Below are positions 1 through 42,118 of a stretch of DNA of 64,000 bases, piece after piece. The stretch comes from Krasilnikoviella flava (lineage in GTDB: Bacteria; Actinomycetota; Actinomycetes; Actinomycetales; Cellulomonadaceae). The translations under genes were made by a program, and so were the position numbers. Numbering within the stretch: position 1 is the stretch's first letter; each line of letters begins with the position of its first letter. Below the pieces are notes generated by a model, which worked only from the letters and a program-made list of their open reading frames with translations, did no database searches and was not told where the DNA came from. Location of the stretch: assembly GCF_900167525.1 (NCBI RefSeq), contig NZ_FUZQ01000005.1, forward strand, positions 384,572-448,571. Reading direction: 5' to 3'.

Positions 1-54
1 TCCTGCTCGGGCTCGTCCTCCTGCTCGGGCTCGTCCTCCTGCTCGGGCTCGTCG
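1..54. repeat. 18-bp coding tandem repeat (three units, open at the edge)
   Basis: Positions 1-18, 19-36 and 37-54 repeat the same 18-bp unit with one change in the last base. On the minus strand they encode a repeated six-residue Glu/Asp/Pro/Gln block in the gvpO-like gene. The array is cut by the window edge, so its true copy number is unknown. Confidence 0.9.
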
Positions 55-167
55 TCCTGCTCCGCTCGCTCGCGTTCCGTCTCCGTGGCACGGGCGGGAC
101 GGCCGTGTGTCGCCGGCGGACGTCGTCGGGGCGCCGGGGCCCGGTGCGGGCCTCTGGCCGGGCTCAT
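1..167 (-). CDS. Probable gas vesicle protein GvpO, N-terminal part (cut by window edge)
   Basis: The ATG at 165-167 overlaps the gvpG stop as ATGA, so this is the next gene of the gas vesicle operon; only about 55 codons are in the window. The first 30 residues are rich in Arg/Pro, then the chain becomes strongly acidic with a six-residue DEPEQ-type repeat encoded by an 18-bp tandem repeat that continues to the edge. Actinobacterial GvpO proteins often have a low-complexity charged N-terminus before a conserved C-terminal domain, which would lie outside the window. The GvpO call is therefore inference from position and composition; another Gvp minor protein with a charged leader is possible. 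Confidence 0.5.
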   Translation of the reverse strand, partial: MSPARGPHRAPAPRRRPPATHGRPARATETERERAEQDDEPEQEDEPEQEDEPEQ

Positions 168-415
168 CGCACTCCTCCTCGCCGCCGACGGCTCGACTCC
201 AGGAGCCGCGCGACCAGCTCCCGCTCGACCGCCTCGGCCTCGCTCGCGCTGATGGACTCTTCCTCCCGGGCCCGCGCCACCTCGTCGAGCTGCTTGCGGA
301 TCGTGCCCGGGTCGTACCACTCCCGTTCGGCCTCGGAACGGACCTGCTCGGCCACCCACGCGACTCCCCGCACAGGAGCGAGCGGCAGGAGGACGATGGA
401 GCTGAGGAGTCCCAC
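164..415 (-). CDS. gvpG: Gas vesicle protein GvpG
   Basis: Small (83 aa) charged, helical protein. It has the GvpG layout: a hydrophobic start (MGLLSSIVLLPLAPVRG), a WVAEQV stretch, then a Glu/Arg-rich coiled-coil-like tail with the IRKQLDEV..REEESIS pattern. GvpG is a minor gas vesicle protein needed for assembly in the cytoplasm. The start is GTG at 413-415, three bases after the gvpF/L stop, and the stop overlaps the next ATG, so the gene is embedded in one transcript. Length matches the family (about 80-90 aa). Confidence 0.9.
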   Translation of the reverse strand: MGLLSSIVLLPLAPVRGVAWVAEQVRSEAEREWYDPGTIRKQLDEVARAREEESISASEAEAVERELVARLLESSRRRRGGVR

Positions 416-418
416 GCC

Positions 419-1180
419 TCACACCTCCTCGGCGAAGTCGTACGGCGCCTGGGGGCCGACGAGACGGACGGACATGCGGTCGGCCACCTGGGCGGCAAGG
501 CCCTCGAGCGCGTCCTCGAGCGGCACCGCGTCCTCGCGGCGGACAAGGAGGGCGAGGTCTGCGACGTCCCCCGATCGCGTGACCTCATGGGCGCGGCTCG
601 CCTGCGTGAACGCCGAGACCGCCGCGACGACGAGCTGTTCGTCACGGGCTCGTCGCCGTTCGAGCCCGGCGACGACGAGCTCGCCCAGACGCAGACGCTC
701 GTGGTACGTGCTGACCTCCGAGCGTCCTCGCGTGATCGAGCGAAGGTGGCGGATCTCCGGGTCCTCCGCGACGAGCTGGGCGAGGACCGCCTCCTCGCGG
801 TAGCGCGCGAACACGGTGAACTGCACCGTGCCCGCCAGCGCCCTCAGGGCGTCCGCGTGACGGGCCTGGTGCTCGACCGGGACGGCGTCGGGCAGCGACT
901 CGTCGCTCGTCGTGGCGCCGAAACGCATCGGGAGCACGGTCTCAGCGCGAGCGACGGTGTCGAGGACCTGGGCGTGGACACGCACGTCGTCGGGCAGCCC
1001 GGGCTCCCTGCCCGAGGGTGCGTCGGAGACGAGTGCCGCGACCCGCCCGAGCCGGATGACCCTCACCAGGTTCCCGTCGATCCCGGCGAGGTCGTCCGGC
1101 GGCCGGGCGGCCGAGGGCACGAGACCATAGAGGTACAGGCGCTGCGCGCGGGTCCTGGTGGGCTGCAGCGTCCCGGTCAC
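419..1180 (-). CDS. Gas vesicle protein GvpF/GvpL family
   Basis: This 253-aa protein begins with the family's YLYGLVP segment (residues about 16-23). It keeps the central [16 protein letters not shown] motif (about 84-99) and ends near VGPQAPYDF, all hallmarks of GvpF/GvpL. These proteins are accessory assembly or chaperone components that bind GvpA. The start is GTG, and its GTGA overlaps the end of gvpA. Actinobacterial clusters usually carry both a GvpF and a GvpL copy; only one is inside the window, so which paralogue this is cannot be decided. Position directly after gvpA favours GvpF. Confidence 0.92.
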
Positions 1181-1590
1181 GACGACCCCTGGCTGGCACG
1201 TCGGCGCGTGCGCTGCGCCTTCTTGCCGTCACCGTCGTCCTCGTCCTTGCCGCCCGTCATGGCCTCCTTCGCGCCGGAGACCATGCCCTTGACCTTGCTC
1301 CGGGACCCGCCCTCCGAGAGGTCGTTCACCAGCTCGGGCAGCTCCCTTCCGCCGGTCTGCTCCAGGTCGAGTCGGTTCGTGGCCTCCGCGAAGCGCAGGT
1401 ACGTGTCGACGCTCGCGATCACGATTCGCGCGTCGATCGTGATCAGCTCGATGCCGACGACGGACACGCGGACAAAGGCGTCGATCACCAGGCCCTTGTC
1501 GAGGATGATGTTGACGACGTCTGCCAACGAGGACGACGACGGTCGGTCCAGATACCCGCTCGAGCGTCTCGTGGTGGTGACCTCACTCAT
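1177..1590 (-). CDS. gvpA: Gas vesicle structural protein GvpA with charged C-terminal tail
   Basis: Residues about 13-65 carry the GvpA core ([20 protein letters not shown], then the [21 protein letters not shown] stretch). This is the hydrophobic protein that forms the ribbed gas vesicle wall. The protein is 137 aa, much longer than the usual 70-75 aa, because of a Lys/Asp/Gly/Arg-rich tail of about 60 residues. Long tails are known in actinobacterial GvpA. The ATG at 1588-1590 was chosen because GGGAGGA sits just upstream; an earlier in-frame start at 1620 lacks a ribosome site. The stop overlaps the gvpF/L GTG. Confidence 0.93.
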
Positions 1591-1616
1591 GCTTCCTCCC
1601 GGTCTACGGGCCGGAG

Positions 1617-2618
1617 TCAACGACTCCTGCTGCGCCTGGTTCGCGGCCGCTCCTCGACCTCTTTCTCACCCTGCTGCTCTTCCTCGCCTTCCTCTTCCTC
1701 GCCTTCCTCTTCCTCGCCTTCCTCTTCCTCGCCTTCCTCTTCCTCGCCTTCCTCTTCCTCGCCCTCTTCCTCGCCCTGCCCCTCCTCGTCGGCGACCACC
1801 TCGTCGTGCGTGCGCACGATCTCCTCCTCCTGGATCTCCGCGCGGTAGCCCTCGACGTCGTCCGGGTGCAGGATGACGTCGGTCATGACGTGGTGGACGA
1901 AGAACTTGAGCTCCAGCCGCAGCCGTCGCCCGACAGGACGCCACACGTTCGCGACCTTTTCCACGAAGCCGCGGGGCCGGTACTCGACCACGACGACGAT
2001 GCGGGTCAGGTCGTCCGCCAACGCGTGGAAGGTCACCGCGCCGCTCAGCGTCCCCTTGTCGCCGGTGGACTCCCACACCACCCTGCGGGTCGCGATCTGG
2101 TCGACGATCGTCGCCTCCCAGCGGCGGTGGGACCAGAACACCTTGCCCTCGAACGAGACGGTGCCCTCGTCCTGGTCCAGGTCGGCGCTCTCGACCTTCT
2201 TCATGAAGTCGGGCCAGGCGTCGTAGTCCGTCCAGGCGTCGTACACGACGTCGATCGGGGCGCCGACGTCGATCGACTCGATGATGTTGATGAACCGGTG
2301 GCCACCGCCGCTGCCGCCGTCTCCGCCACCGAACAGGCCGGTCACCTTTTCCTTCGCGGCGGCCATGGCCGACGCGGCCCCCGCCTTGAGCGGCGACTTT
2401 CCCTCCGCGAGCGCCTCGCCGCCCTTCTTGGCCGCCGCGGCCATGGGACCGCCGCCGTCGGCATAGTTGGTCAGCCGGTCGGTGACGGAGCCGGCCTTGT
2501 CGGCGACGGCGCCGACCGCACGGTCACCGAGCGCGCGGGCCAGGGCACCGACGGAGCCCGTCAGCTTTCCGACCACACCCGTGGCCTTGTCGGTGCCGGA
2601 CTTCACAGTCTCACTCAT
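1617..2618 (-). CDS. SRPBCC/START-fold protein of gas vesicle operon (GvpZ-like) with acidic repeat tail
   Basis: This 333-aa protein has three parts. Residues about 1-105 are an Ala/Gly/Lys-rich helical leader. Residues about 106-250 form a polyketide cyclase/dehydrase (SRPBCC) domain starting at [21 protein letters not shown] and including WPDFMKKVE. The tail is almost purely Glu, with a five-residue GEEEE repeat, ending in an Arg-rich cap. In Streptomyces gvp clusters a cyclase/dehydrase-like protein (GvpZ) occupies a matching place; its role is unknown. The ATG at 2616-2618 is preferred over the adjacent GTG (2619-2621) because AGGAG then lies at a normal distance. Confidence 0.8.
1689..1763. 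repeat. 15-bp coding tandem repeat (five perfect units)
   Basis: Five identical 15-bp units (1689-1703, 1704-1718, 1719-1733, 1734-1748, 1749-1763) are flanked on each side by a 12-bp partial unit. They encode the GEEEE repeats at the C-terminus of the SRPBCC protein. Perfect identity, including third codon positions, suggests recent slippage expansion. Confidence 0.95.
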
Positions 2619-2641
2619 CACGATCTCCTGTCCGGTCCGGT

Positions 2642-3295
2642 TCAGGACGACTTGCGGGCGCGAGAGGATCGCGAGGACGAGCCGGACCCCGACGAGGTGC
2701 GGGTTCGCGACGTCCCGGATCGGGAGCCCGAACCCGACGACGTGCGGGAGCCGCCGCCGCTCGACTTGGCCGCCGGACGCCGGCGCGCAGGGGCCTTCTT
2801 CGGAGCGGGAGGCTCCTCCTCGTCCTGACCCTCGTCTGCTGCCTCAGCCTCGGAGTCTTCCTCGTCAGGTGCTTCCGCCTCCGACTCCTCCTCACCGGCG
2901 GTGTCCTCATCGGAGGGCATCTCGTCCTGGGGCGCTTCCTCGTCCTCCGGCGCTTCGTCCTCGTCGCCGGCGGCGCGGTCCTCCTCGCCTGGGACGCCCG
3001 CCTGCAGCTTCGTGGTCAAGGCGTCCACGCGGTTGGTCACCGCAGCGAGCGCCGCGTCCTTGCTCGCGCTGACGAGACGGCCGGTGACGTCGTCCTTGAG
3101 CCGCTGCACCTGGGGTGATGCGGCAAGGTCCTTCAGGCCGCTCATCCGGCCCATCAACTGCCCGCGGGTCGTCTCGTCACGCAGTCTGTTGCCCGCCACG
3201 GCGGCACTGATGAGCACCGCAGTCTTCAGCCTCTTGGTCCTGCCGAGCAGATAGCCCCCGAGGAGGATCCCGGCAAGCTTGAGCTTCTCGTCCAT
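2642..3295 (-). CDS. Gas vesicle operon protein, GvpY-like, with acidic and basic tails
   Basis: This 217-aa protein starts MDEKLKLAGILLGGYLLGRTKRLK, a glycine-rich short hydrophobic segment followed by a GRTK basic patch. I recall this start from the actinobacterial gas vesicle operon proteins called GvpY (often mislabelled DNA primase). A helical middle (about 40-95) is followed by a long Asp/Glu tract and a final Ser/Arg/Gly-rich basic tail. It is the first gene of the operon, 23 bp before the SRPBCC gene. The ATG at 3293-3295 follows a G-rich Shine-Dalgarno stretch; the longer frame to 3370 has none. Function unknown. Confidence 0.65.
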   Translation of the reverse strand: MDEKLKLAGILLGGYLLGRTKRLKTAVLISAAVAGNRLRDETTRGQLMGRMSGLKDLAASPQVQRLKDDVTGRLVSASKDAALAAVTNRVDALTTKLQAGVPGEEDRAAGDEDEAPEDEEAPQDEMPSDEDTAGEEESEAEAPDEEDSEAEAADEGQDEEEPPAPKKAPARRRPAAKSSGGGSRTSSGSGSRSGTSRTRTSSGSGSSSRSSRARKSS

Positions 3296-3771
3296 CGCAA
3301 CAACCCCCCACGGGTGGTCGGTCGATCGGAACCAGCGCTCTGCTTGACTGGCGTTTGCAGCGTGACACACTCGCGGTGGGCTCGCGGGGCCGTTGCCGCG
3401 CGCACTCGCTCCCCGGCGTCGCGCCGGCTCCGACGCGGCTCAGGACGCGACTCAGCCGGACCTGGCGGGCGGCACAACCTCCGTCGGGTCCACGTCGGGC
3501 CGGAACCTGGCAACGTCCGTTATTAGTGGCCGTCGGTATTCCCCTGCGCATGGAGTGGTTGAGTCCAGCTGGTGGTGGCGGTTCATCCCCGACGGGGAAC
3601 TTCGGAGACGGCGTGGCCCGACGGCCCTGAACGACGCCGGCCGAGCCGTCTGCCAGGTCAGGGGCAGGAGGCCCCCGCCGACTTGCGGCGCGAGGGTCTA
3701 CGTTGGGCCACGAGGCACTCGGGAAGGCGGTGGCGTCACTCGCGAGGAGTGTTCCGCCCGAGATGGACCAG
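3296..3771. other. Intergenic region between gas vesicle operon and MFS gene
   Basis: This 476-bp gap holds no convincing gene. It should contain the gas vesicle operon promoter (minus strand, near 3320-3400), though no clear -35/-10 pair could be fixed. It also holds the left copy of a 39-bp repeat (3504-3542) whose second copy lies upstream of the glutaminase gene. Confidence 0.6.
3504..3542 (+). repeat. Direct repeat A, left copy (39 bp)
   Basis: This 39-bp segment matches 6899-6937 at 36 of 39 positions in the same orientation. The three mismatches all fall in the same codon phase (repeat positions 10, 22, 28). The two copies bracket the glutaminase-MFS operon. Nature unknown: recombination site, duplicated coding fragment or shared regulatory site. 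Confidence 0.8.
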
Positions 3772-5412
3772 CTACTTCGCCGGTGAGGGGTCGGGGATCT
3801 CGTCGGGGCGGTAGCGGGGTAGGCGGCTGGCAGGGAAGATCGCCGTCGCGCTGACTCCGGCGAGGATGAGCAGCCCGAACTGCAGCGTGTTCAGGCGGGC
3901 CTCTTCGTTGATGGCGACCGCGGCCTCGACCTGGGTCTCGGTGGCGTCGGTGGCGTCGAGGACGGTGCGCAGCTCGTCGTTGCTGACGAAGTTCGTGTTG
4001 TCGAGGTCGACCTGGGCCACGAGCGACGGGGGCAGCTCGGCGTGCTCGACGACCGCGCGACCGACGGTGAAGGTCAGGATCGTCACCAGCATGGCGCCGG
4101 CGATCGCGGTGCCGACGGCCGAGGCGAGGTTCTGCGTGGTGCCACGGATGGATCCGACGTCCCCGGCGAGCGTCTTGGGAGCCGCGGTGACCAGGACGTT
4201 GAAAACGAGGGTGACGAGCGCTCCTTGCCCGACGCCGAAGACGAACAGGCCCAGGATCGTGGGCAGTGTCTCCCAGTTGTTCGTCACCACGAACGACAGC
4301 CACAGCAGGGCCGCGGTGGTCAGGACGAAGCCGAAGACGCCGATGGTGCGCGGCGGGTAGCGCTTGTAGAAGCGCACGACGAGGGTCGCGGTGACGAACA
4401 CGGTGAGGTTGAACGGCATCATCGCCAGTGCCGTGTCGAACGGTGTGCGGCCCTGCACGATCTGGATGTACAGCGGGACCGTGAAGTTCAGGGCGGCCTC
4501 GAGCGCGACGACGACGAACATCGCGTAGACCGCCGCACGTTCGCTGGGGCGTACGAGAACGGACAGGTCGACCAGCGGGACCTTGCCGGCGGCGGTACGA
4601 CGCCTGGTCCACCAGAAGAACGTCTGCCCGAGCACGATCCCTACCAGCACGAACACCGGCGCGGGCGACAGACCGCCGAGGGCGAACGGGGCGCCTGGTG
4701 AGGCGTAGAACAGGCCCCAGGAGTTGAGGTTGTTGAACCCGAGAGTCAGCAGCACGATCGCCGCGCCGATGATCGTGGCGGCGACCAGGTCGATACGGAC
4801 CCCGGGGTCACCGCGGTCGGCTCGTAGCGTGAAGGAGAAGGCGAAGACTGCCACCGCCAGGACGAGCACGATACCGAAGACCGGGCGCCACCCGACGAGG
4901 GTGCCGAGCGCGCCACCGATGAGGAAGGCGCTGACCCCCGAGATCGCGCGGGCCGAGCCGAGCGAGCCCACGGCGGTGGCCTGCTGCGCACCGCGGTAGT
5001 TCTCCGCGATCAACGCGACCAGGGACGGCACGATGATCGCCGCCGACGCACCGGCCACCGCCTGTCCTGCGATCGCCCACCCGACGGACCGGGAGAAGAT
5101 CATCAGCAGCGCCGAGAGGGCGAACGTCGCCACGACGACTCGAAAGATCGTCACCCACCCGATGCGCTGACCGAGCTTGGCACCAGCCATGACCAGAGCC
5201 GCCACCGCGAGCCCGTACACGACGATGGTCGAGCTCGCCACGGTCGGCGGGACCCCGAAGTCCTCGACCATCCCGCCCAGCGACACCGGCAGCGCGGCAA
5301 CGTTGAACGACATCAGCACCTGCGCCAGGAACAGGCCCACCATCGGTAGCCACGACCGACGCTCCTCGCTAGGGGGCACGACGGTCTCCTCCGCGACGTC
5401 TCGAGCACTCAT
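3772..5412 (-). CDS. MFS transporter, DHA2 (EmrB/QacA-like) drug/proton antiporter type
   Basis: This 546-aa membrane protein has many hydrophobic segments, a number consistent with 14 membrane spans. It has a motif-A-like GAKLGQRIGW after the second span and a motif-C-like AGASAAIIVPSL in span 5. Such proteins export drugs or metabolites in exchange for protons. An extracytoplasmic insert follows about residue 440 (VEHAELPPSLVAQVDLDN), as in several actinobacterial DHA2 proteins. Its ATG overlaps the glutaminase stop by one base (TGATG), so the two are translationally coupled. Substrate unknown; coupling to glutaminase makes an amino-acid-related substrate conceivable. Confidence 0.88.
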   Translation of the reverse strand: MSARDVAEETVVPPSEERRSWLPMVGLFLAQVLMSFNVAALPVSLGGMVEDFGVPPTVASSTIVVYGLAVAALVMAGAKLGQRIGWVTIFRVVVATFALSALLMIFSRSVGWAIAGQAVAGASAAIIVPSLVALIAENYRGAQQATAVGSLGSARAISGVSAFLIGGALGTLVGWRPVFGIVLVLAVAVFAFSFTLRADRGDPGVRIDLVAATIIGAAIVLLTLGFNNLNSWGLFYASPGAPFALGGLSPAPVFVLVGIVLGQTFFWWTRRRTAAGKVPLVDLSVLVRPSERAAVYAMFVVVALEAALNFTVPLYIQIVQGRTPFDTALAMMPFNLTVFVTATLVVRFYKRYPPRTIGVFGFVLTTAALLWLSFVVTNNWETLPTILGLFVFGVGQGALVTLVFNVLVTAAPKTLAGDVGSIRGTTQNLASAVGTAIAGAMLVTILTFTVGRAVVEHAELPPSLVAQVDLDNTNFVSNDELRTVLDATDATETQVEAAVAINEEARLNTLQFGLLILAGVSATAIFPASRLPRYRPDEIPDPSPAK

Positions 5413-6446
5413 CAGCGGGACTCCGTTCCTTCAGGCATCCGAGCAGGGTGTTCGGCCACGCGCGGCGCCGAGGCAAAGACATTGAGACCGAGCGTCCGGG
5501 ACAGGTACGCGGTGGCGCGCTGACCGCGCACGCTGTTTCCGGCCGGGTCAAGGGGCGGGGAGAACGTGCCGATCGCACCCTTCCCGGGAGCCACCGCGAC
5601 GATGCCACCAGCGACCCCAGACTTCGCCGGCAGCCCGATCTCGAACAGCCACTCCCCCGACCGCTCGTACATCCCGGTCGCGGCGAGCACCGCGAGCGTG
5701 TCCCGGCACACCTGCCCCGAGACCACGCGTTCTCCCGTGACCGGGTTGACCCCGCCGTCCGCGAGCGTGGCCCCCATCACCGCGAGATCGTGAGCGCTCA
5801 CACGCAGCGCGCACTGACGCGTGTACACGTCGACCACCTCGAGCGGGTCGACCTCGATCCGGCCGTAGCTCTGCAGCAGCCGCGCGATCGCCTTGTTGCG
5901 CATGTTCGTCGCCGACTCCGACCGATACACCTCATCGTCGAGCTCGAGCTGACGCCCCGCGAAGGCCGACAGCCCGCCGCGGACGTTCTCCCACTGCTCG
6001 CCGAACGACGCCCCAGGCATCAGTGCCGTCGTGGCGAGCGCACCGGCGTTGACCATCGGGTTCATCGGGTGCCCGTCGTTGAGCTCGACCGCGATCACCG
6101 AGTTGAACGGCAGGCCGGTGTTGTTCACCCCGACGCGTTCGAGGACGTCCTGGTGCCCGAACTCCTCGCACACCAGCGCGTACACGAACGCCTTCGAGAT
6201 CGACTGGACGGAGAACTCGACCTCGGTGTCCCCCGCGCCGTGCACGGCGCCGCCCGACTCGGCCACGCACACCCCGTACAGGCCGGGATCCACCGTCGCG
6301 AGCACCGGAATGTAGTCCGCGACGACACCGTCATCAACGTCGCGGTACCGCGCATGCGCAGCGCCCACCAGGTCTTCGACCCGGTCCCAGCCAGGCAGGG
6401 AGCCGGTCGACACCTCCTGCTCGATGCCCTCGACGTCCGTCTCCAC
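5412..6446 (-). CDS. glsA: Glutaminase (serine-dependent, GlsA type)
   Basis: This 344-aa enzyme hydrolyses L-glutamine to glutamate and ammonia in the cytoplasm. Family features are VADYIPVLA near residue 45, the catalytic SVQSISKAF motif (Ser-x-x-Lys, about residues 79-87), NTGLPFNS, HPMNPMVNAGAL, SESATNMRNKAIARLL, and a C-terminal GLPAKSGVAGGIVAV block. The GTG at 6444-6446 was chosen because GAAGAGGG lies upstream and the family begins there. Longer upstream ATGs would add an atypical leader. It precedes the MFS gene with a one-base overlap. Ammonia release by glutaminase can buffer acid, and a glutamate decarboxylase lies 16 kb away. Confidence 0.92.
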   Translation of the reverse strand: METDVEGIEQEVSTGSLPGWDRVEDLVGAAHARYRDVDDGVVADYIPVLATVDPGLYGVCVAESGGAVHGAGDTEVEFSVQSISKAFVYALVCEEFGHQDVLERVGVNNTGLPFNSVIAVELNDGHPMNPMVNAGALATTALMPGASFGEQWENVRGGLSAFAGRQLELDDEVYRSESATNMRNKAIARLLQSYGRIEVDPLEVVDVYTRQCALRVSAHDLAVMGATLADGGVNPVTGERVVSGQVCRDTLAVLAATGMYERSGEWLFEIGLPAKSGVAGGIVAVAPGKGAIGTFSPPLDPAGNSVRGQRATAYLSRTLGLNVFASAPRVAEHPARMPEGTESR

Positions 6447-6871
6447 GACAACCCTCTTCCGCCGGTCTGCTCGAGCAACTGCGATGCTCGCACGCACGAC
6501 AGCACACCGCAGTGCCAAACCAATTTCGGGGACGTTACGCATCGCGAACAGCAGGGTCATTCCGCGGGTCATGCCACGCTGGCGGACTGGTGAAAGTTGA
6601 CCTTGGACCGTCATGGCGTCTCTCTGATTGCTCGTCGCCGGCCCGGCGGCCGACGCCGGACGGCGGACTCCGCTTCGGGGCCCGGGATCAATGCAACGGC
6701 AGCCGCGGACCGCCAACCAGATCCGCTTCCTCCCAGGGTCTGCTAGTGCCCTTCACCAGAGACATCAGCAGCTGTGACCAACTGGAGTGACCGAGCATTG
6801 CCAGCACGCTGCGCGTCCCAGAGAGTTCTTCGGTGGGGCAGCGTGTTCGCAGGCCAATCAGGGTGTTGGGG

Positions 6872-6899
6872 TCTCCATCGGAGACAACTCTGGACGTAA
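6872..6899 (+). repeat. Repeat B, left copy (ligase 3'-end-like, possible attachment site)
   Basis: This segment matches 14996-15023 at 25 of 28 positions, with an exact 15-bp core at 6885-6899. On the minus strand it reads LRPELSPMET, matching the ligase C-terminal LRPELHPLEI at the other copy. It lies at the left border of the recombinase-bearing region and joins repeat A at base 6899. Confidence 0.75.
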
Positions 6900-6937
6900 A
6901 CCTGGCACCGTCCGTTATTCGTGGCAGTCGGTATTCC
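6899..6937 (+). repeat. Direct repeat A, right copy (39 bp)
   Basis: This is the right copy of the 39-bp repeat at 3504-3542 (36/39 identical). It begins exactly where repeat B ends. Confidence 0.8.
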
Positions 6938-7051
6938 TCGCGCTCGGAACGGGTCGCACTGCGTCAGACGCGCCGAGCGGTGCCCCGGCGGCTGGGACCG
7001 ACATGATCCGTGTCGGGGTCCCAGCGCCGGGGCGTTGGCGGTGCTGGATGG

Positions 7052-7423
7052 TCAGCGGGGCGAGATGCGTACGGTGGCGGACTTCGGTCCCGCACCCTGC
7101 ATGATGGGTACGGCCGAGCTACCGGGGTACTTGGCCTCGTACGCCGCGTCGATCTCCGCCTCGTTCTCGGGCCCCGCGGCTTCGAACGTGACGTCGTAGT
7201 ACGCGTCGGCGACACGCACCCGGCCCGCGCCCTGGGCGAGTGCTGCTTGGTACCAGCGGGATTCCGGACCGTTGGCGGCGCGCACGTAGACCGTGCCGCC
7301 CACGACGAGGGCCCAGGTCTGGGTATCGGTCCCGTAGGTGGTGCCGTCCTCGCGGAACGGGGCCACGAACAGGTCTTGGGTGGTGGCGATGGTCTCGAGC
7401 TGTTCTGCGGTCCACGCGCTCAT
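7052..7423 (-). CDS. DUF2255 family protein
   Basis: This 123-aa soluble protein has the DUF2255 pattern. It begins SAWTAEQLETI, has WALVVGGTVYVRAANGPES (about 44-62), then GRVRVADAYYDVTFE and a C-terminal AAYEAKYPG...ATVRISP. The fold resembles a flavin-reductase/split-barrel-like domain, but the function is unknown. Members commonly sit beside oxidoreductases and HTH regulators, as here (113 bp downstream of an aldo/keto reductase). The ATG at 7421-7423 has AGGAG upstream; an in-frame ATG eight codons earlier has none. Confidence 0.85.
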   Translation of the reverse strand: MSAWTAEQLETIATTQDLFVAPFREDGTTYGTDTQTWALVVGGTVYVRAANGPESRWYQAALAQGAGRVRVADAYYDVTFEAAGPENEAEIDAAYEAKYPGSSAVPIMQGAGPKSATVRISPR

Positions 7424-7536
7424 GAGCGTCTCCTGGTAATCGCGCATCGTGGTGTCGGGGTCGGTTGGCTGGATCGGTGCGGTGCGGCGGCGGTCTGTCA
7501 GAAGTTCTAGGCCGGCGCGGACCGCCTTGTGGGTCC

Positions 7537-9568
<2,032 letters not shown>

Positions 9569-9616
9569 ACTGCCAGTGCCTCCCTGGGCTCGGACGGGCG
9601 ACGTACGCTCCCAGTC

Positions 9617-10513
9617 ATGGACATCCGGAGCGACCTCCGCGAGTTCCTGACCACCAGACGGGGCAGGCTCACCCCGGCCGACGTCGGGCTCCCCGACTTC
9701 GGCGGCCGCCGACGCGTTCCCGGCCTTCGCCGCGAAGAGGTCGCCCTGATGGCCGGGATGAGCGTCGAGTACTACGTGCGCCTTGAGCGCGGCAACGCCA
9801 CCGGCGTCTCGGAGTCCGTGCTCGAGGGCATCAGCCGCGCCCTGCAGCTCGACGACGCCGAACGCTCCCACCTCTACGACCTCGTGCGAGCGGCGAACGA
9901 AGGGGCGCAGCCCCGCCGCCGCCGAGGCCCCGCCCGGCAGGAGAAGGTCCGCCCGCCCGTGCAGCAGCTCCTCGACGCGATGAGGGACGTCCCCGCTTTT
10001 GTGCAGAACGGACGACTCGACATCCTCGCGATCAACGCACTCGGCCAGGCGGTGTTCTCCGAGATGTACGTCCAACCGCAGCGCCCCGCGAACTTCGGCC
10101 GCTTCGTCTTCCTCGATCCGCGCGCCCAGACCTTCTACCGCGACTGGGACGCTGCCGCCGCCCAGACTGTGGCACTGCTGCGCTCCGAAGCAGGTCGCGC
10201 CCCGCACGATCGTGTCCTGAGCGACCTTGTCGGGGAGCTCAGCGTCAAGAGCCAGGACTTCCGCGCCCTGTGGGCCTCCCACGACGTCCGCCAGCACGAC
10301 ACCGGCATCAAGAGCATCACCCACCCCGTCGTCGGCGACCTCGACCTGCAATACGAGGCGATGGCCCTCGCCTCCGGGCCGGGACTCCAGCTCATCGCCT
10401 ACAGCGCTCCCCCGACCAGCACCACAGCCGACGCCCTCACCATGCTGGCCAGCTGGGCGGCCACGCAGCACGAACGCACCGGCCCGACGTCAGAGTCGAG
10501 CGAGAGCCGCTAG
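9617..10513 (+). CDS. XRE-family transcriptional regulator with MmyB-like ligand-binding domain
   Basis: This 298-aa protein has an N-terminal helix-turn-helix (residues about 8-80, with RRVPGLRREEVALMAGMSVE and YYVRLERG typical of this class). A C-terminal MmyB-like domain (about 105-275) binds a small ligand such as a fatty acid in related structures. Features include VPAFVQNGRLDILAINAL, RFVFLDPRAQTFYRDW and DLDLQYEAM. The ATG is at 9617. The gene is divergent from the SDR-AKR-DUF2255 genes. In actinobacteria such regulators typically control an adjacent SDR or AKR gene, so local repression is likely. Confidence 0.92.
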   Translation: MDIRSDLREFLTTRRGRLTPADVGLPDFGGRRRVPGLRREEVALMAGMSVEYYVRLERGNATGVSESVLEGISRALQLDDAERSHLYDLVRAANEGAQPRRRRGPARQEKVRPPVQQLLDAMRDVPAFVQNGRLDILAINALGQAVFSEMYVQPQRPANFGRFVFLDPRAQTFYRDWDAAAAQTVALLRSEAGRAPHDRVLSDLVGELSVKSQDFRALWASHDVRQHDTGIKSITHPVVGDLDLQYEAMALASGPGLQLIAYSAPPTSTTADALTMLASWAATQHERTGPTSESSESR

Positions 10514-10655
10514 ACCCCTGCCGGGCGCCTGGAACACGGACACTCGGCGCGCAAAGGACTACAGACCGCTCCCTGGTGGCAGCAGCGCGCACCGCTGAGA
10601 CGGGCACGGTCACGCCCGCCCTACCCTGACGAAACACCAGGAGAACAACCGCACC

Positions 10656-11753
10656 ATGACAGACCTCGCAGCGCCCATCTCGTGGGGCGCGTCCCGATCG
10701 GCCAACCGCATCGCGCTGGCCCCGATGACCAACAAGCAGAGCCACTCCGATGGAAGGCTCAGCGACACCGAGATCGCCTGGCTCGCTCGCCGAGCCGCAG
10801 GCGGCTTCGGAACGATCATCACCGGCGGCTACGCGGTCTCGCCGGAGGGAAGAGTCTGGGAGGGGCAGGCCGGCGTCTACTCCGACGACCACATCGCCCC
10901 GCTGGCGCGGCTTGCCACGGCCCTGGCTCCGACAAGCACGCCCGGGATCGTGCAGCTCATCCACGGCGGTTCTCGCTTCACTCCCGAGATCGCGCGCGCT
11001 CAAGGGATCTCGGCATCGGCCGGAAGCAGCTGGCGGTCAGCGACAGACCGCGACGTCGAGCGTCTCGTCGACGCGCACCGCTCCGCGGCCCTCCGCGTGC
11101 AGGCAGCCGGTCTGCAAGGGATCGAGATCCACGCCGCCCACGGTTACCTCCCCGCACAGTTCATCAGCCCGACGGAGAACACCCGCACAGACCAGTGGGG
11201 CGGAGAGCTGAACGCCCGGGCCCGGTTCTTGCGAACGCTCGTGCAGACCGTCCGGTCCGCGGTCGGACCCGAGTTCGTCGTCGGCGTTCGACTCTCCGCA
11301 GAGGACCCGCGGCGCGGCATCACTCCCCAAGAGACGGCAACCATCGCAGGCTGGATCGCGCAGGACGGGATCGACTACCTGCACCTGTCCCTCCGCAATG
11401 CGCTCGCCACATCGGCCGACCACCCGAATACCCACCCCCTCCGCCTCATCCGGGCGGCGATCCCCTGCGAGGCCCGTCTCGTCGTCGCGGGAAAGCTATG
11501 GAGCCCGCAGGACGCCAGACTCGCCCTGGCCCAGGGAGCGGACGTCGTCGCCCTGGGACACGCAGCCATCCACCACCCCGACTGGCCGCAGGAAATGGCC
11601 GATCCGACATGGACCCCGACACCACCACCCACGAGCACAACTCGACTGACCGCGCTCGGAGTCAGCGATCCGTTCCTCCGCTACCTGCGCGAGAACTGGC
11701 CCGAGACGGTCATGGAGGCCGCGCCCAAGGACCGCACCTCTGGTGGGGTGTAA
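10656..11753 (+). CDS. NADH:flavin oxidoreductase, Old Yellow Enzyme family
   Basis: This 365-aa FMN-dependent TIM barrel has the LAPMTNKQS FMN-contact loop (residues about 21-29) and VQLIHGGSRF (about 100-109). It also has GIEIHAAHGYLPAQF (about 157-171, the substrate His pair region) and ENTRTDQWGG, the NNRxDxYGG-type signature. These enzymes reduce activated C=C bonds using NAD(P)H. The ATG at 10656 has AGGAG 11 bp upstream. It follows the MmyB-like regulator in the same direction by 142 bp and fits the redox cargo theme of this segment. Confidence 0.92.
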   Translation: MTDLAAPISWGASRSANRIALAPMTNKQSHSDGRLSDTEIAWLARRAAGGFGTIITGGYAVSPEGRVWEGQAGVYSDDHIAPLARLATALAPTSTPGIVQLIHGGSRFTPEIARAQGISASAGSSWRSATDRDVERLVDAHRSAALRVQAAGLQGIEIHAAHGYLPAQFISPTENTRTDQWGGELNARARFLRTLVQTVRSAVGPEFVVGVRLSAEDPRRGITPQETATIAGWIAQDGIDYLHLSLRNALATSADHPNTHPLRLIRAAIPCEARLVVAGKLWSPQDARLALAQGADVVALGHAAIHHPDWPQEMADPTWTPTPPPTSTTRLTALGVSDPFLRYLRENWPETVMEAAPKDRTSGGV

Positions 11754-11856
11754 CTCCCAGCGTGATGGCCCTGGACTCAAGGCGACCGAGAGAGGAAGCT
11801 GCGCGGCCCTGTCTCCCAGCAAAACCAGCAACGGCGTGGGCGAAGGTTGAGAAGCC

Positions 11857-13419
11857 TCAGCGGCCGTTCGGCCGCCTCACCGTGGACACCGACGGACGCA
11901 CGCGCTCGTCGACGAGGTGCATGTACCCGGTCCAGTCTCGTGCGGCTCGCCTCGTCCAGTTCACGGCCGCTGCGACGCTCAGGCCGAACAGGTCACAGAT
12001 CACCGACGCGGGGAGATCGGCGGCCAGTCCGATGAGGGCGGCATTGCGGGACTGGCGCACGGACAAGCTGTGCGTACGCAGCCGGGCCTGCAGCCCCGTA
12101 AAGGTCACGTGCCCCGCTGTGCCGCGACCAGGGAACAGCCAGCTCGGGGCGTTGGCCCGTGCGTCGATAAGCGGTGCGCCACCGGACGGTATGGGTGCGG
12201 GTAGGCGGGTGAGGATGCGGCCAAGCCTCGGCGGGACTGTGACGGCCGGCGCGCCGGTCGTCGTGCGGAAGGCGGTCACGATGTCCGAGCCGGCCTCGAT
12301 GACCAGGTGGTCGCGGGTGAGCTCGATGATGCGTTGGAGTGGAATCCCGTAGAGCAACAGGAGGGCACCGGCCGCGCGGACATCGTCAGGAATCGACGTG
12401 TCCGTGAGACATCGGCGCAGTTCGGCCCAGCGCCGTTCCTCACTCAGCAAGATCGTGGGTTCGGTTCTCTCGGGGTACGTCACGGTGAGGCGTTCGACCA
12501 GGCTGCGCCGCACCGCCCACCGCAAGAAGTCGCCGGTCGCGGCGCGCTGGGTGTGCGTTGCCTGCTCGAGCCACGCGTCCAGGGTCGGCTGGTCGAGGGC
12601 TCCGAGGGGTACGGCGTTGGATTCGAGCCACTTGAGCAGCGCGCGGACGGCGGCGATTCGTTGCCATGCGGAGCGAAACTGGGGGTAGGTGAAGCGCCCG
12701 GATTCCTCGTACCGTCGCCGTGCCCGGCGCAGGTACCACCACGACGCGTAGGCGCGCACGATCGAACGGGGACTCGGCGCGAGGTCCGCGGTGATCTTCT
12801 CGACGATAACGTCGAGCCGTGCCAGAGGATCCTCGCGCTCAGGAAGGATCTCGAGCTCGACCAGGGTGCGCCGTAGTGACCACACCTCACGCTCGTCGTA
12901 AGTGTCGAGAGCCTCGTGGCTGATCGGGGTGCCTCGGTCGAGGAGTTCCCCCAGGACGCGTGCGCCCCCACGAGGGTTGGTCAGCCATTTCATGACCGAA
13001 CGTGGACGCCGGCTTCCGCGTAGGGCGGTGGTCAATGTCTCGATCGGGCTGCCGGGCGGAGCGTCCCCGAAGGCCGTCCGCAGCTGGTCGCCGAGCGCGC
13101 ATCTGACGCACAGCAGATTCTTGTAGGGCTCTTCGCCACCGCCGCACCGTAGGCAGACGTAGGAGTACCGGTAGCTGCCAGAGCATGGCCCGCAGATCGT
13201 TGGAACGAGGAGTTCGTCGTTGGCGGGCGCGTCTGGGTGGCCGACAAGGACGCGGATCTTCGAGCACGATGCGCAGGGGCGTGGGGTCGATCGACCGCGG
13301 TGGTAGCACGTTGCGCAGACGTGCCCTATGGGCCAGCGTGCCGAGTAGACCCGCATCTGGCCGCAGATCGCGCAGCGCACGGGCAGGCGCTCGTAGGTCT
13401 TGCGGCTCGTCGTCGCCAT
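11857..13419 (-). CDS. Zinc-ribbon protein with degenerate tyrosine-recombinase-like domain
   Basis: This 520-aa protein has five CxxC-type pairs in the first 115 residues (RCAICG, CATCY, CASCS, CGPC, CLRCG and CVRC), forming zinc ribbons. A SAM-like core-binding region follows (about 250-320), then a region resembling a tyrosine recombinase catalytic domain (about 360-500). It has LLLYGIPLQRIIEL (box I position), SWLFPGRGT and RQSRNAALIGLAADLP (box II position). The usual His-x-x-Arg, the LGH motif and the Tyr nucleophile are not recognisable (LFGLS and WTGYM stand there), so it is probably catalytically dead. The ATG (13417-13419) overlaps the XRE stop as ATGA. It likely acts with the integrase upstream. 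Confidence 0.75.
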   Translation of the reverse strand: MATTSRKTYERLPVRCAICGQMRVYSARWPIGHVCATCYHRGRSTPRPCASCSKIRVLVGHPDAPANDELLVPTICGPCSGSYRYSYVCLRCGGGEEPYKNLLCVRCALGDQLRTAFGDAPPGSPIETLTTALRGSRRPRSVMKWLTNPRGGARVLGELLDRGTPISHEALDTYDEREVWSLRRTLVELEILPEREDPLARLDVIVEKITADLAPSPRSIVRAYASWWYLRRARRRYEESGRFTYPQFRSAWQRIAAVRALLKWLESNAVPLGALDQPTLDAWLEQATHTQRAATGDFLRWAVRRSLVERLTVTYPERTEPTILLSEERRWAELRRCLTDTSIPDDVRAAGALLLLYGIPLQRIIELTRDHLVIEAGSDIVTAFRTTTGAPAVTVPPRLGRILTRLPAPIPSGGAPLIDARANAPSWLFPGRGTAGHVTFTGLQARLRTHSLSVRQSRNAALIGLAADLPASVICDLFGLSVAAAVNWTRRAARDWTGYMHLVDERVRPSVSTVRRPNGR

Positions 13420-13748
13420 CAGGCGTGATCGGGACGGCGGATCCTCGTGCGTTGCACGTCGGGTGCGGGTCCGGCTGGCCCGCCGGCGCTGGTCCTCTTG
13501 GCGACCTGCTGGTCGACCACGATGACGCGCAGGAGGTCGTTCGGAGTGCATTGCAGGATGTCGCACAGCGCGGCGAGTGTGTCGGTGCTCAAGCGTTGAG
13601 GTGTGGACGTGACGAGGCGGTAGACCTGCTCGCGAGAGAGGTGAACGCCGCGCTCGGCCAGCAGGGGCACGAGGTCTGTGGTGGCGAACAGTCCCCGTTC
13701 GGCCATGCGCAGGCGCAGGTCCCATTCGACGGCCATCTTCTTGATCAC
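13419..13748 (-). CDS. Small XRE/Cro-type helix-turn-helix protein of the recombinase trio
   Basis: This 109-aa protein has a helix-turn-helix at residues about 10-75 (MAERGLFATTDLVPLLAERG, HLSREQVYRLVTSTPQRLS, LAALCDILQCTPNDLL) and a basic, Pro-rich tail. It is probably a DNA-binding regulator or directionality factor for the flanking recombinases. The GTG at 13746-13748 overlaps the integrase stop (GTGA), with AGGAGG upstream; an ATG four codons later is an alternative. Its own stop overlaps the next start, so all three genes are translationally coupled. Confidence 0.85.
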   Translation of the reverse strand: MIKKMAVEWDLRLRMAERGLFATTDLVPLLAERGVHLSREQVYRLVTSTPQRLSTDTLAALCDILQCTPNDLLRVIVVDQQVAKRTSAGGPAGPAPDVQRTRIRRPDHA

Positions 13749-14893
13749 GGGCCTTCCTCCTCGGGGTCGTGCCACAGGTCTGGTTGGTGGGAGGTGATCG
13801 CTCGGCGTAGCAGCGTATTGCGGTAGGCGTCGGAGACGCCGGTGTAGATGGCAGTGGTGGCGGCATAGGCGTGGCCGACCTGCTCCTGGACGAACCGCTC
13901 GGGGTAGTCGAACTCGACCAAGTGCGTGACGTAGGAGTGCCGCAGGCTGTGCAGGTCGAGTGCCGGGTCCAGTCCCGCGGCATCGCGGGCCCTGGCGAAC
14001 GCGGTGTTGATCCCGCGCCAGTCGAGCCGACTTCGTCGTTCGGTCACCCACACGGCCGGGTGCTTGCCCGGGTCGAAGCGGGGGCGGACGTCCTCGATCC
14101 ACTGGTCGAGGATGGGCACCACCCAGTCCATCTCCGGCACGAGCATGACCGTCCGCCGCTGAGCTGCTCCGCCTCGCCTGGCCTTGCCCCACCGCACGTA
14201 CAACGCCCCGAACCGGCCGAACGCCGGAACCTTGGGATTGCGTCGAAGGTCGTGCAGATCAAGGCCCCACGCCTCGCGTCGCCGCAGCCCGAACGCATAG
14301 ACCGCCTTGAGGATTGCCGCATCGCGCTGGGCTGCGAGGGAACCCTTTCGGCGTCGACGCCGCACCATGTCGACGTTGTCGTCTGCCGCGTCGAACAGGA
14401 GCTGTACCTCGTCATAGGTCAGTGGTCGCCTTCCGGGCGACCCCTCGTACTCGCTGGAGTGCACGACGCTGTTCCACTCGTCGAGCACCTGCTGGGGTGC
14501 TTCACCGAACCGTTCCAAGCACACCGCCACCCACCCGTACCGGGGATCGGTCACGTACTCGAGAAACATCCGCAGGTTGCCGGTGTAGGACCGGGCGGTC
14601 GAGACCTGCCGGGCGCCAGACTGGCCGCTGATGAACGCTTCGACCTCTGCCGCCGTCCACTGCCAGGGGTAGAGGTTCGAGAACTCGACCATGCGCCGCA
14701 CCATCCGAAGACGGTGTCCGATCGTGCTGGCCTTGAGGAACCGCACCCGCTGCTGCCGCGCCCAGCCCTCAAGCATCGCGTCCAGGACCGCGGACTCGGG
14801 CTGAAGCAATCCCAAGCCGTCGACCAGCACCAACCGCGCAGCACCAGGCAATTCCGGCCCTGAGCTCGACTCGGTCACGGTTGCATCTAACAC
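13745..14893 (-). CDS. Tyrosine recombinase/integrase
   Basis: This 382-aa site-specific recombinase has an N-terminal SAM-like DNA-binding region (about residues 35-130). The catalytic domain (about 150-365) has a complete active site: Arg in FGLRRREAW (about 203), Lys in RWGKARRG (about 235), HSLRHSY (about 316-322), VGHAY (about 340) and Tyr in AIYTGVSD (about 349). It cuts and rejoins DNA through the tyrosine. The GTG at 14893 is the only possible start near the N-terminus and has a weak ribosome site. It is first in a three-gene unit and lies about 100 bp from the 15-bp repeat in the ligase 3' end, the typical place for an integrase beside its attachment site. Confidence 0.95.
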   Translation of the reverse strand: MLDATVTESSSGPELPGAARLVLVDGLGLLQPESAVLDAMLEGWARQQRVRFLKASTIGHRLRMVRRMVEFSNLYPWQWTAAEVEAFISGQSGARQVSTARSYTGNLRMFLEYVTDPRYGWVAVCLERFGEAPQQVLDEWNSVVHSSEYEGSPGRRPLTYDEVQLLFDAADDNVDMVRRRRRKGSLAAQRDAAILKAVYAFGLRRREAWGLDLHDLRRNPKVPAFGRFGALYVRWGKARRGGAAQRRTVMLVPEMDWVVPILDQWIEDVRPRFDPGKHPAVWVTERRSRLDWRGINTAFARARDAAGLDPALDLHSLRHSYVTHLVEFDYPERFVQEQVGHAYAATTAIYTGVSDAYRNTLLRRAITSHQPDLWHDPEEEGP

Positions 14894-14951
14894 AACATTG
14901 AGTCATGAGCACAAGGGGCCCTTGTCGGCGGGCCGCCGGTGCTGCAACCGT

Positions 14952-15985
14952 TCACTCTGGCAAGGCGTTTCCGCTGGTCCCGGTGGGTGGCGAGATCTCC
15001 AACGGATGCAACTCTGGACGTAACCGCACGAGGCGCAGGGCGTGCCGGAAGGCGCCGCCCGTCCAGGCGGCTTCGGCGCTGACCTCGATGACGACCGCCT
15101 CGACGAGCGTCAGGACGACCGGGCGGCGACCGTTTCCGAACGTGCCGAACACGCCCGGGGCGACCCGTCTCGGCCAGGGACGGCTGCCGCGTGGCTCCCA
15201 GAGGTGGAGCGCGAGGGCCTGACGGGCGGCCGGCGGGAGCGGAGCGCGACCCACGATGCGCAGCTCTGCCTCGATCGGGAGCCCGGCGACGGCCTCGCGC
15301 GGGGCGGTGCGCGATCCGATCACCGCCCCGCAGAGGACGTCGATGGTGGGGCGCGGTGCTTGATCTCGAGCCGGTCGCGAGGCCCGCCACGGTAGGTCTG
15401 GTCCGCACCCTTGACCACGAGACCCTCCACAGCGGCCACCCCGTAGGTCGCGAACCAACGGCGCGCTTCCTCGACGTCGGTCGTGACGGGCGACAGGTTC
15501 AGGGGCGGGTGCCATGTCTCGGCACGCTCCTCGAGCAGCGCCCGACGCTGGGTACTGTGGCAGGCCTCGCATGTCGTCGCCACCACTGACGAGGATGTCG
15601 AAGACGGCCGGCGAGGCGGGGTGCTCTCGCGCGGACCTCGTTGCCGTGCGTGGCGCGCGCCCCCTGCGCTCCTGGAGGGCGTCGAAGTCCAGGTGTCCTC
15701 CGGACCACACCACCAGCTCGCCGTCGAGCACTGTCCCCTGGGGCCACCTGCTCGATGGCCGCACCGGCGACGTCGGGGAAGCTCGGTGTCAGGTCTGTCC
15801 CCTGTCGCGACCACAGGTCCACCCGGGCGTCGTCGCGCGCGACGACGCAGCGGAAGCCGTCCCACTTCGGTTCATAGAGACACCCTCCGGGGAGCGCGCC
15901 AGCGCAGGGACCTCGTCGACCGGGCGGGCGAGAGCCACCTCGACCGGCAGGACGAACCCCGGCGGCAGGCCCAGGAGTTCGCGGC
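14952..15985 (-). pseudogene. ATP-dependent DNA ligase (LigC/LigD-ligase type), frameshifted
   Basis: Ligase sequence is spread over three frames on this strand. A start-like region (LPPGFVLPVEVALARPVDEVP) is followed, in another frame, by the adenylation motif CLYEPKWDGFRCVV with the catalytic Lys. Then come GTVLDGELVVW (motif III) and LDFDALQERRG, VFDILV, then in a third frame ALLEERAETW, LSPVTTDVEEARRWF and GLVVKGADQTY. A return to the second frame gives the OB-domain end (EAELRIVGR, FRHALRLVRLRPELHPLEI). At least four frame changes are needed and no start codon is evident, so it is a pseudogene. The 3' end carries repeat B. Confidence 0.85.
14996..15023 (+). repeat. Repeat B, right copy in ligase 3' end (possible attachment site)
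   Basis: This is the 28-bp partner of 6872-6899 (25/28 identical, exact core 15009-15023). It encodes LRPELHPLEI of the ligase C-terminus on the minus strand and sits about 100 bp upstream of the integrase start. Confidence 0.75.
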
Positions 15986-16102: not shown

Positions 16103-16459
16103 CAAGCAACGTCCGCTGCTCTGACCAGCATCGACGATGCTTCTGAACCTGCCGTGGGCCACCGGATGGGCCCACGATTCGCAGCTCGGGAGAGCCGGAC
16201 TCACCACTGGGGCGGTCGCCGTACGGGCATCCGCCACAGTCACCTCAGCGGCTGGAGAGCGGTCTCTGCGGCATTCTGCAGAGACCGCTGCGGCTCGGCC
16301 AGACCTGGGTGAATTGGAGGCTCGGCGCGCCTTGGGTCGGGACAGGGCTCCGGGCCTGCTCCTAGACTTGAGGCGAGACGTCCGTTGGGTTGTCGCCGAA
16401 CAGGACGCTGCCAATATGCCGGCTGTTCGCAGTGACGGCAGAGAGCCACGGGTCAGAGG
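16103..16459. other. Intergenic region upstream of LAL regulator
   Basis: No gene seen. It holds a strong inverted repeat at 16258-16289 and probably the regulator's promoter. Confidence 0.5.
16258..16289. promoter_or_regulatory. 12-bp perfect inverted repeat upstream of LAL regulator
   Basis: Arms AGCGGTCTCTGC (16258-16269) and its exact complement (16278-16289) are separated by 8 bp, about 170 bp before the LuxR-type gene. No T-run follows, so an operator is more likely than a terminator. Confidence 0.4.
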
Positions 16460-42088: not shown

Positions 42089-42118
42089 AAGGCCGTCCCG
42101 GCCCACCGGGGCGGCCTT
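42089..42118 (+). terminator. Terminator of second tRNA unit
   Basis: 13-bp arms (42089-42101, 42106-42118) with one G:T wobble and a CCCA loop, followed by TCCTCG. Confidence 0.85.

Follow-up and report, generated by a model that had tools for sequence, protein, structure and literature searches.

What occupies the 3' end of an ATP-dependent DNA ligase gene in Krasilnikoviella flava, and how far does it extend? The question is raised by a 64,000-nt stretch of contig NZ_FUZQ01000005.1 (positions 384,572 to 448,571; hereafter the window, in which all positions are counted from its first base), for which a preliminary description had proposed an integrative element of about 8.1 kb inserted at this gene end. 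Judged from sequence, the locus very probably carries two site-specific integrative elements, A and B, stacked at the ligase 3' end. In all likelihood, element A belongs to an actinobacterial family that encodes a tyrosine integrase (int), a small helix-turn-helix (HTH) protein (xre) and a zinc-ribbon pseudo-recombinase (znr). The proposed target and the ends of A were upheld by the core site and the terminus of this family; the proposed extent was incomplete, as a second element lies beyond the left end. The ends, the target gene and element B are the following, all on the minus strand:

14952..15974: target gene, ATP-dependent DNA ligase, with a frame shift near 15736 and an uncertain start
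14996..15023: right repeat copy, the int-proximal attachment site, from repeat searches
14995..15011: core site A, TTGCATCCGTTGGAGAT in the ligase sense, at -118 of the int start; 12/17 to the family consensus TTGCATCCGATGCAACA
14879..14895: site B at the int start, TTGTGTTAGATGCAACC; a similar motif lies at the int start in most of 21 loci
6899..6937: distal terminus of element A, GGAATACCGACTGCCACGAATAACGGACGGTGCCAGGTT, from consensus searches
6858..6899: left repeat copy in a ligase-like end, LRPELSPMETPTP and a stop by translation; the A/B junction
3504..6898: element B, with a glutaminase and a transporter and no recombinase gene seen
5412-6716: glutaminase of element B (Pfam)
3504..3542: distal terminus of element B, from consensus searches
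3452..3505: ligase-like end, FRPDVDPTEVVPPARSG and a stop by translation; the outer island boundary

The order in the window is thus ligase body, site A, the int–xre–znr trio, redox cargo, terminus A (6899), the LRPELSPMETPTP end with its stop, glutaminase, transporter (3772-5412, presumably of the MFS type), terminus B (3504) and the FRPDVDPTEVVPPARSG end with its stop. Insertion at the ligase end is well supported, because the core site stands at the right repeat copy, the terminus stands at the left copy and int lies behind three other ligase ends. The second terminus and ligase-like end at 3,504 indicate that B is stacked on A and that the island comprises 3,452-15,023, with A occupying about 6,900-15,010 (~8 kb). 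Since a recombinase-less element lies outside the left end of A, 6872-6899 is probably an internal junction. Positions 6858-6899 probably form the start of element B and 3452-3505 are probably the native ligase tail, and the last codons of the target ligase would come from element A. The anatomy of both ends, its recurrence in relatives, the displaced ligase-like ends and the arrays are established.

The two repeat copies, at 6872-6899 (TCTCCATCGGAGACAACTCTGGACGTAA) and 14996-15023 (TCTCCAACGGATGCAACTCTGGACGTAA), share 25 of 28 positions around an exact 15-bp core, and their reported positions and common orientation were verified. Across the 4.85-Mb genome the 15-mer has exactly two occurrences and its reversed control none. 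Translation bore out the ligase-like coding in the equivalent frame of the left copy, and the int start, at 14893, lies 103 bp inside the right copy, as against the ~100 bp given before. The right copy, which contains core site A at -118, is the ligase C-terminal coding end as described, although the ligase gene reads in two frames, shifting near 15736, and is therefore either a pseudogene or affected by a sequencing error. The Pfam DNA_ligase_A_M match lies on the open reading frame (ORF) 14952-15764 (under the curated cut-off), and intact family ligases cover 15974-14967 in two frames by tblastn. The spacers of the half-sites differ between the two window copies (CATCCG and TCTCCG), so that either mutation followed later or identity there is not required. 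The repeat pair gains its significance through position and not as a blind repeat. When the 44 bases around the core site of the family are used as a query, the left partner scores 21.5 (33/44), compared with 11 for the next-best place in the 64 kb. The same search in eleven other loci gave best scores of 9-11.5 in ten of them, and the true partner in Parafrankia scored 23.5.

The int-side end is recognizable across the family. A near-palindrome, TTGCATCnGATGCAACA, precedes int by 113-145 bp in most loci, frequently at -118 or -119, and core site A reaches at least 12/17 in that interval in 23 of 27 loci, compared with 0.33% of 5200 control segments. The site stands at gene ends. These are ligase ends in the window, in Cellulomonas hominis (L144), in a Micrococcales metagenome-assembled genome (MAG; L155) and in genome G895, with int directly behind the ligase end in each of the last three; the MAG ligase is open over 340 aa, and the G895 ligase is 71% identical to it over residues 34-361 in one piece. 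In the first three ligase loci the core is the best conserved part (95-100% nucleotide identity), which speaks for insertion at the ligase end. In other members core site A lies at the nrdH end, namely in a Rhodococcus plasmid and, as the translation is read, in two mycobacteria. In Parafrankia it lies at the end of a gene that we take to be NlpC/P60-like, and in genome G646, twice, at the ends of presumably ATP-binding-protein-like genes. These two G646 trio copies (L234/L236 and L235/L237) share a chromosome, are 3.84 kb long and 99% identical, and adjoin the ends of two similar host genes, with full identity beginning near the host stop codon; they provide a good model for mapping the element ends. 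As for site B, it is probably an arm or operator site; it is kept in G420, from which int is gone.

Two further loci bear on these sites. In Nocardia takedensis (L152, 9021-9856) a perfect core site A (17/17) closely follows the end of a gene with a distant resemblance to ligases (about 30% to those used), which perhaps represents another ligase type as target. Near the int start in L055 and L153, inverted half-sites make up a compound site B (for example GATGCAACATTGTTGCATC), an arrangement that might serve autoregulation of int.

At the distal end, the terminus reads GGAATACCGACnnnnnCGAATAACGGACGnnGCCAGGT in the ligase sense and is composed of two GAATAnCGnAC motifs followed by GCCAGGT. Termini A and B of the window are identical at 37 of 44 positions and are the only two in the genome at three mismatches or fewer. 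By a looser rule (GAATAnCGnAC twice with up to four substitutions, then CCAGT or a near form), 19 of 35 family loci have a terminus downstream of int, and none has one on the opposite strand or upstream of int. The distance from site A to the terminus is 3.4-25.6 kb. In genome G475 the cargo block of element A recurs at 76-83% identity (blastn limits 6900 and 11744), with the trio absent, between two direct 40-bp repeats, the termini, 4,982 bp apart.

Displaced ligase-like ends accompany these termini in relatives. A consensus without the ligase codons, searched at a threshold of at least 25/39 with repeated loci removed, gave ten distinct terminus-like sites, compared with one for the reversed consensus. 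Eight of the ten adjoin an in-frame RP[DE], as in ligase C-termini, and seven stop within the 75 bases read; the two misses are window position 42113 (no ligase end) and the inner site of G475 (RLDW and a stop). In the controls, RP[DE] was found at none of the 17 termini whose family elements occupy other targets and at 308 of 24,000 random places. A pattern joining the terminus to ligase codons matches 22 places, spread over 14 of the 221 family genomes, and its reversed form matches none. RP[DE] is in part presupposed by this pattern, unlike the stops: of the 22 tails, 19 reach a stop within 30 codons, and many run on in a ligase-like manner, for example RPDMHPDEVSPPPTTA and RPELDPVEVSPPAGTA, each closed by a stop.

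Same-strand groups of such places are found in G925 (four in 46 kb), G895 (two), G924 (two, on one contig), G328 (two), G475 (two) and the window (two). A ligase was found in the stretch read in six of the 14 genomes (the window, G328, G895, G500, G495 and G420). In G895, int begins 82 bp after the ligase and is followed by two termini, each with its ligase-like end. Units that lack the trio are seen in G475 (5.0 kb), G500 (2.2 kb, with what we assume to be ArsR-like, transporter and oxidoreductase genes), G495 (3.4 kb) and G420, where the ligase core and site B are kept. A TIR-NACHT protein is encoded between the two members of the Parafrankia pair, which lie 8.3 kb from each other.

Two other stretches are recorded here. 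Four termini with ligase-like codons lie on the same strand at G925:C1:2805190-2851018 (L267-L270), with no ligase or trio match in the 90 kb read. L122 (G149, 6820-11351) holds a ligase 3' fragment with a tail known from the elements, no trio match in the 20 kb read, and what we take to be transposase-like sequence upstream and Abi-like genes downstream; it is possibly a decayed array.

Several observations weigh against stacked insertion at the ligase end. No empty site was seen. The 15 other genomes of the genus that were listed have no match to the ligase fragment of the window and hence no ligase end for comparison; conservation of the glutaminase flank stops at 6419-6454 in G003, G013, G016 and G017, and that of the right flank begins at 16339 in G005, with no ligase at either place. 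By the looser rule, 16 of the 35 loci carry no terminus (L141, L143, L144, L145, L153, L155, L156, L158, L169, L171, L172, L055, L234, L238, L239 and L240); L145, L155 and L156 are short contigs, and the termini of L144 (G328:C21:1933 and 219) lie on the same contig outside the searched stretch, 44-46 kb from the ligase. Because the rule was shaped after such sites had been seen, the control consists in the contrast of strand and side and not in the count. Four loci fall below 12/17 at core site A, namely L055, L141 and the two ligase loci L144 and L155, which reach 9/17 with the gene-side half alone kept. In G895 znr is interrupted. In eight of the 14 genomes with terminus and ligase codons (G475, G925, G917, G924, G477, G436, G492 and G940) no ligase was found in the stretch read; it may be far away, lost or decayed, and G477 has a ligase on another contig. 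Plain similarity retrieved the distal partner of core site A in only two of 12 loci, no clear partner emerged when twelve plasmid loci were searched in a similar way, and a repeat search at the C. hominis locus yielded no second core.

The repeat pair itself is near the chance level in a blind search. Its ungapped score is 19, compared with 14-18 in seven other 11-kb stretches of the window, save two overlapping ones with an unrelated duplication scoring 42, and the best repeat in 60 Markov simulations reached 19 at most (mean 14.35). A count of none in 100 shuffles is no test, because the search pattern was written from the pair. A blind score that the best of 60 simulations equals is what a chance match beside a mere neighbouring ligase fragment would give. 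This explanation is nevertheless hardly credible, given that distant members conserve the signals at both repeats, and given the ligase-like ends beside termini, with their controls.

A more serious alternative, albeit a decidedly improbable one, is a single ancient insertion, after which the ligase and the element would travel as one plasmid unit and the ligase end would not be a recurrent target. Many plasmids carry relatives of this ligase (201 records), ORFs of plasmid type (presumably including ParB and ArdC) surround the MAG copy, and the integrases of the ligase loci are alike. Furthermore, int and ligase have diverged to a similar degree, which also tells against repeated insertion: among the window, L144 and L155, gaps left out, nucleotide identity is 80-85% for int, 95-100% for the core and 67-80% for the flanking ligase, so that descent from one insertion is possible for some loci. 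However, the displaced ends vary as widely as native ligase tails do (RPDVDPTEVV, RPDTEVSSV, RPDAEVSAV, RPDVPVEEAQPP, RPDAAVESV), the arrays differ in spacing and cargo, and a joined ligase and int query was covered to at least 80% in one place in none of 336 plasmid records; some of its plasmid matches begin at query residue 308, perhaps by chance extension through the core site. The limits of the element could also be drawn more narrowly, with the trio alone (about 11,802-15,023, 3.2 kb) as the minimal element and the cargo at 6,900-11,801 as an adjoining independent unit. The G646 copies, which contain little beyond the trio, and the cargo block of G475, which lies without the trio between its own termini, point that way. 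This delimitation is unlikely, as the window shows no terminus on the way from znr to the cargo, the nearest past znr being that at 6,899, and kilobases separate znr from the terminus in other loci.

If two elements did dock at the ligase end, the following mechanism may be envisaged. A circular form would recombine, by a presumed strand exchange, with the ligase codons for Arg-Pro-Glu/Asp, at about CGTCCAGA. A substitute ligase tail would arrive on the int side of the element, at core site A, and the old tail would be pushed outward, past the distal terminus. The regenerated site could then take further elements, including recombinase-less ones such as B, giving rise to cassette-like arrays. 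Units without the trio would arise by trio loss and move in trans, and the HTH and zinc-ribbon proteins may have roles in recombination. In a wider and more tentative proposal, the ligase 3' end, plasmid-borne in many relatives, might be an integron-like actinobacterial platform on which recombinase-less cassettes with a common 40-bp terminus dock and form ordered stacks, mobilized in trans by the integrase and the zinc-ribbon pseudo-recombinase. The cargo of such cassettes could conceivably comprise metal resistance, redox and transport functions, and perhaps defence.

The genes of element A are the following:

13745..14893, minus strand: int, tyrosine recombinase, 382 aa (PF00589, E 5e-20), with R204, H315-x-x-R318, H341 and Y350 present
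13419..13748, minus strand: xre, Cro/C1-type HTH protein (HTH_26, Pfam), 109 aa
11857..13419, minus strand: znr, 520 aa, without Pfam match; 12 invariant cysteines and a tyrosine-recombinase-like predicted fold
10656..11753, plus strand: NADH:flavin oxidoreductase / OYE family, cargo (Pfam)
9617..10513, plus strand: MmyB-like HTH regulator, cargo (Pfam)
8613..9455, minus strand: short-chain dehydrogenase, cargo (Pfam)
7537..8514, minus strand: aldo/keto reductase, cargo (Pfam)
7052..7423, minus strand: DUF2255 protein, cargo (Pfam)

The cargo thus consists of five redox and regulatory genes, and no relaxase or conjugation gene was found among the eight genes of element A scanned with Pfam, a scan that did not extend to the transporter of B. 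With its full catalytic set, int is an active-looking integrase. By cut-off it is not of the integron family (TIGR02249, 49.7 bits against 265), and its six pattern matches in viral contigs were not confirmed. The genes int, xre and znr occur together in most loci examined.

The znr product is, as modelled, a zinc-ribbon protein with a degenerate, presumably catalytically dead recombinase fold. Its 12 invariant cysteines all lie in the first 107 residues. With residue equivalences read from the motifs, all 11 members have Trp in place of the catalytic Tyr, ten of the 11 begin the HxxR motif with Arg, and eight of the 11 lack the box-I Arg. In Foldseek searches with the predicted structure, ranks 1-21 are all tyrosine recombinases. 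The model has medium confidence (pLDDT 75, pTM 0.44) and these 21 ranks reach only low TM-scores (0.22-0.31, by query length), so that the fold assignment depends on the agreement of the ranks and on the motifs; a profile search against solved structures gave two matches (E 0.33 and 0.92). Matches to znr are present in 46 of 396 genomes of the order (E 1e-10) and in 235 plasmid records (E 1e-5), and there was none in 50,697 phage records.

How does this island compare with known systems? In integrons, cassette arrays consist of stacked recombinase-less units that share an end sequence. The ligase-end arrays are alike in stacking and in their common end, and differ in that int falls outside the integron family by cut-off. 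The Tn554-related actinobacterial transposons likewise have adjacent tyrosine-recombinase genes and occur on plasmids and chromosomes of the same genera; they carry a long recombinase (611-828 aa) and a short one, many with TnpC (PMC3414803). Element A has one catalytic Int, an HTH_26 middle gene and a zinc-ribbon protein without the catalytic Tyr (11/11). The TnpC-less families Famint36/41 of the same source (PMC3414803) may correspond to the int–xre–znr trio. RIT elements share the layout of three adjacent genes, but all three encode tyrosine recombinases, unlike those of element A, and they predominate in alpha- and beta-proteobacteria (PMC3414803). SE-6945, an integrative element of 7.1 kb, combines four conserved genes and cargo with imperfect inverted core motifs; it and SE-6283/Tn6283 have two catalytic recombinases, other targets and a demonstrated strand-biased circularization, whereas element A is known from sequence alone (PMC9345347).

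Islands and integrative and conjugative elements (ICEs) at gene 3' ends, such as those at trmE (PMC8409611), guaA (PMC4701971) and tRNA genes (PMC3218068), place the attachment site in the gene end next to int, as is the rule in ICEs and as in element A. Element A has the features of such elements, namely an integrase next to the attachment site, direct repeats with one copy in the target end and a displaced gene end; it differs in its target, a DNA ligase gene, and in that no conjugation gene was recognized. Among the open-literature matches listed, no ligase gene was found as an attachment site, nor was a description of the trio or a name for the family; the accessible parts of PMC8138268, PMC9317374 and PMC2647930 describe neither a ligase attachment site nor the trio.

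To the left of the island, positions 1-3370 hold what we take to be a gas-vesicle cluster, with GvpA/J- and GvpF/L-like proteins. Elsewhere in the window, a direct duplication lies at ~48741 and 50033, 1,292 bp apart (ungapped score 42), unrelated to the island.

The end signatures make the elements of this widespread actinobacterial family, with the terminus 3.4-25.6 kb from site A, and their cargo delimitable by sequence. The DNA ligase gene would be added to the genes at which integrative elements dock, as a place where recombinase-less units stack. Furthermore, a conserved partner in the form of a catalytically dead recombinase paralogue would offer a testable part in site-specific recombination.

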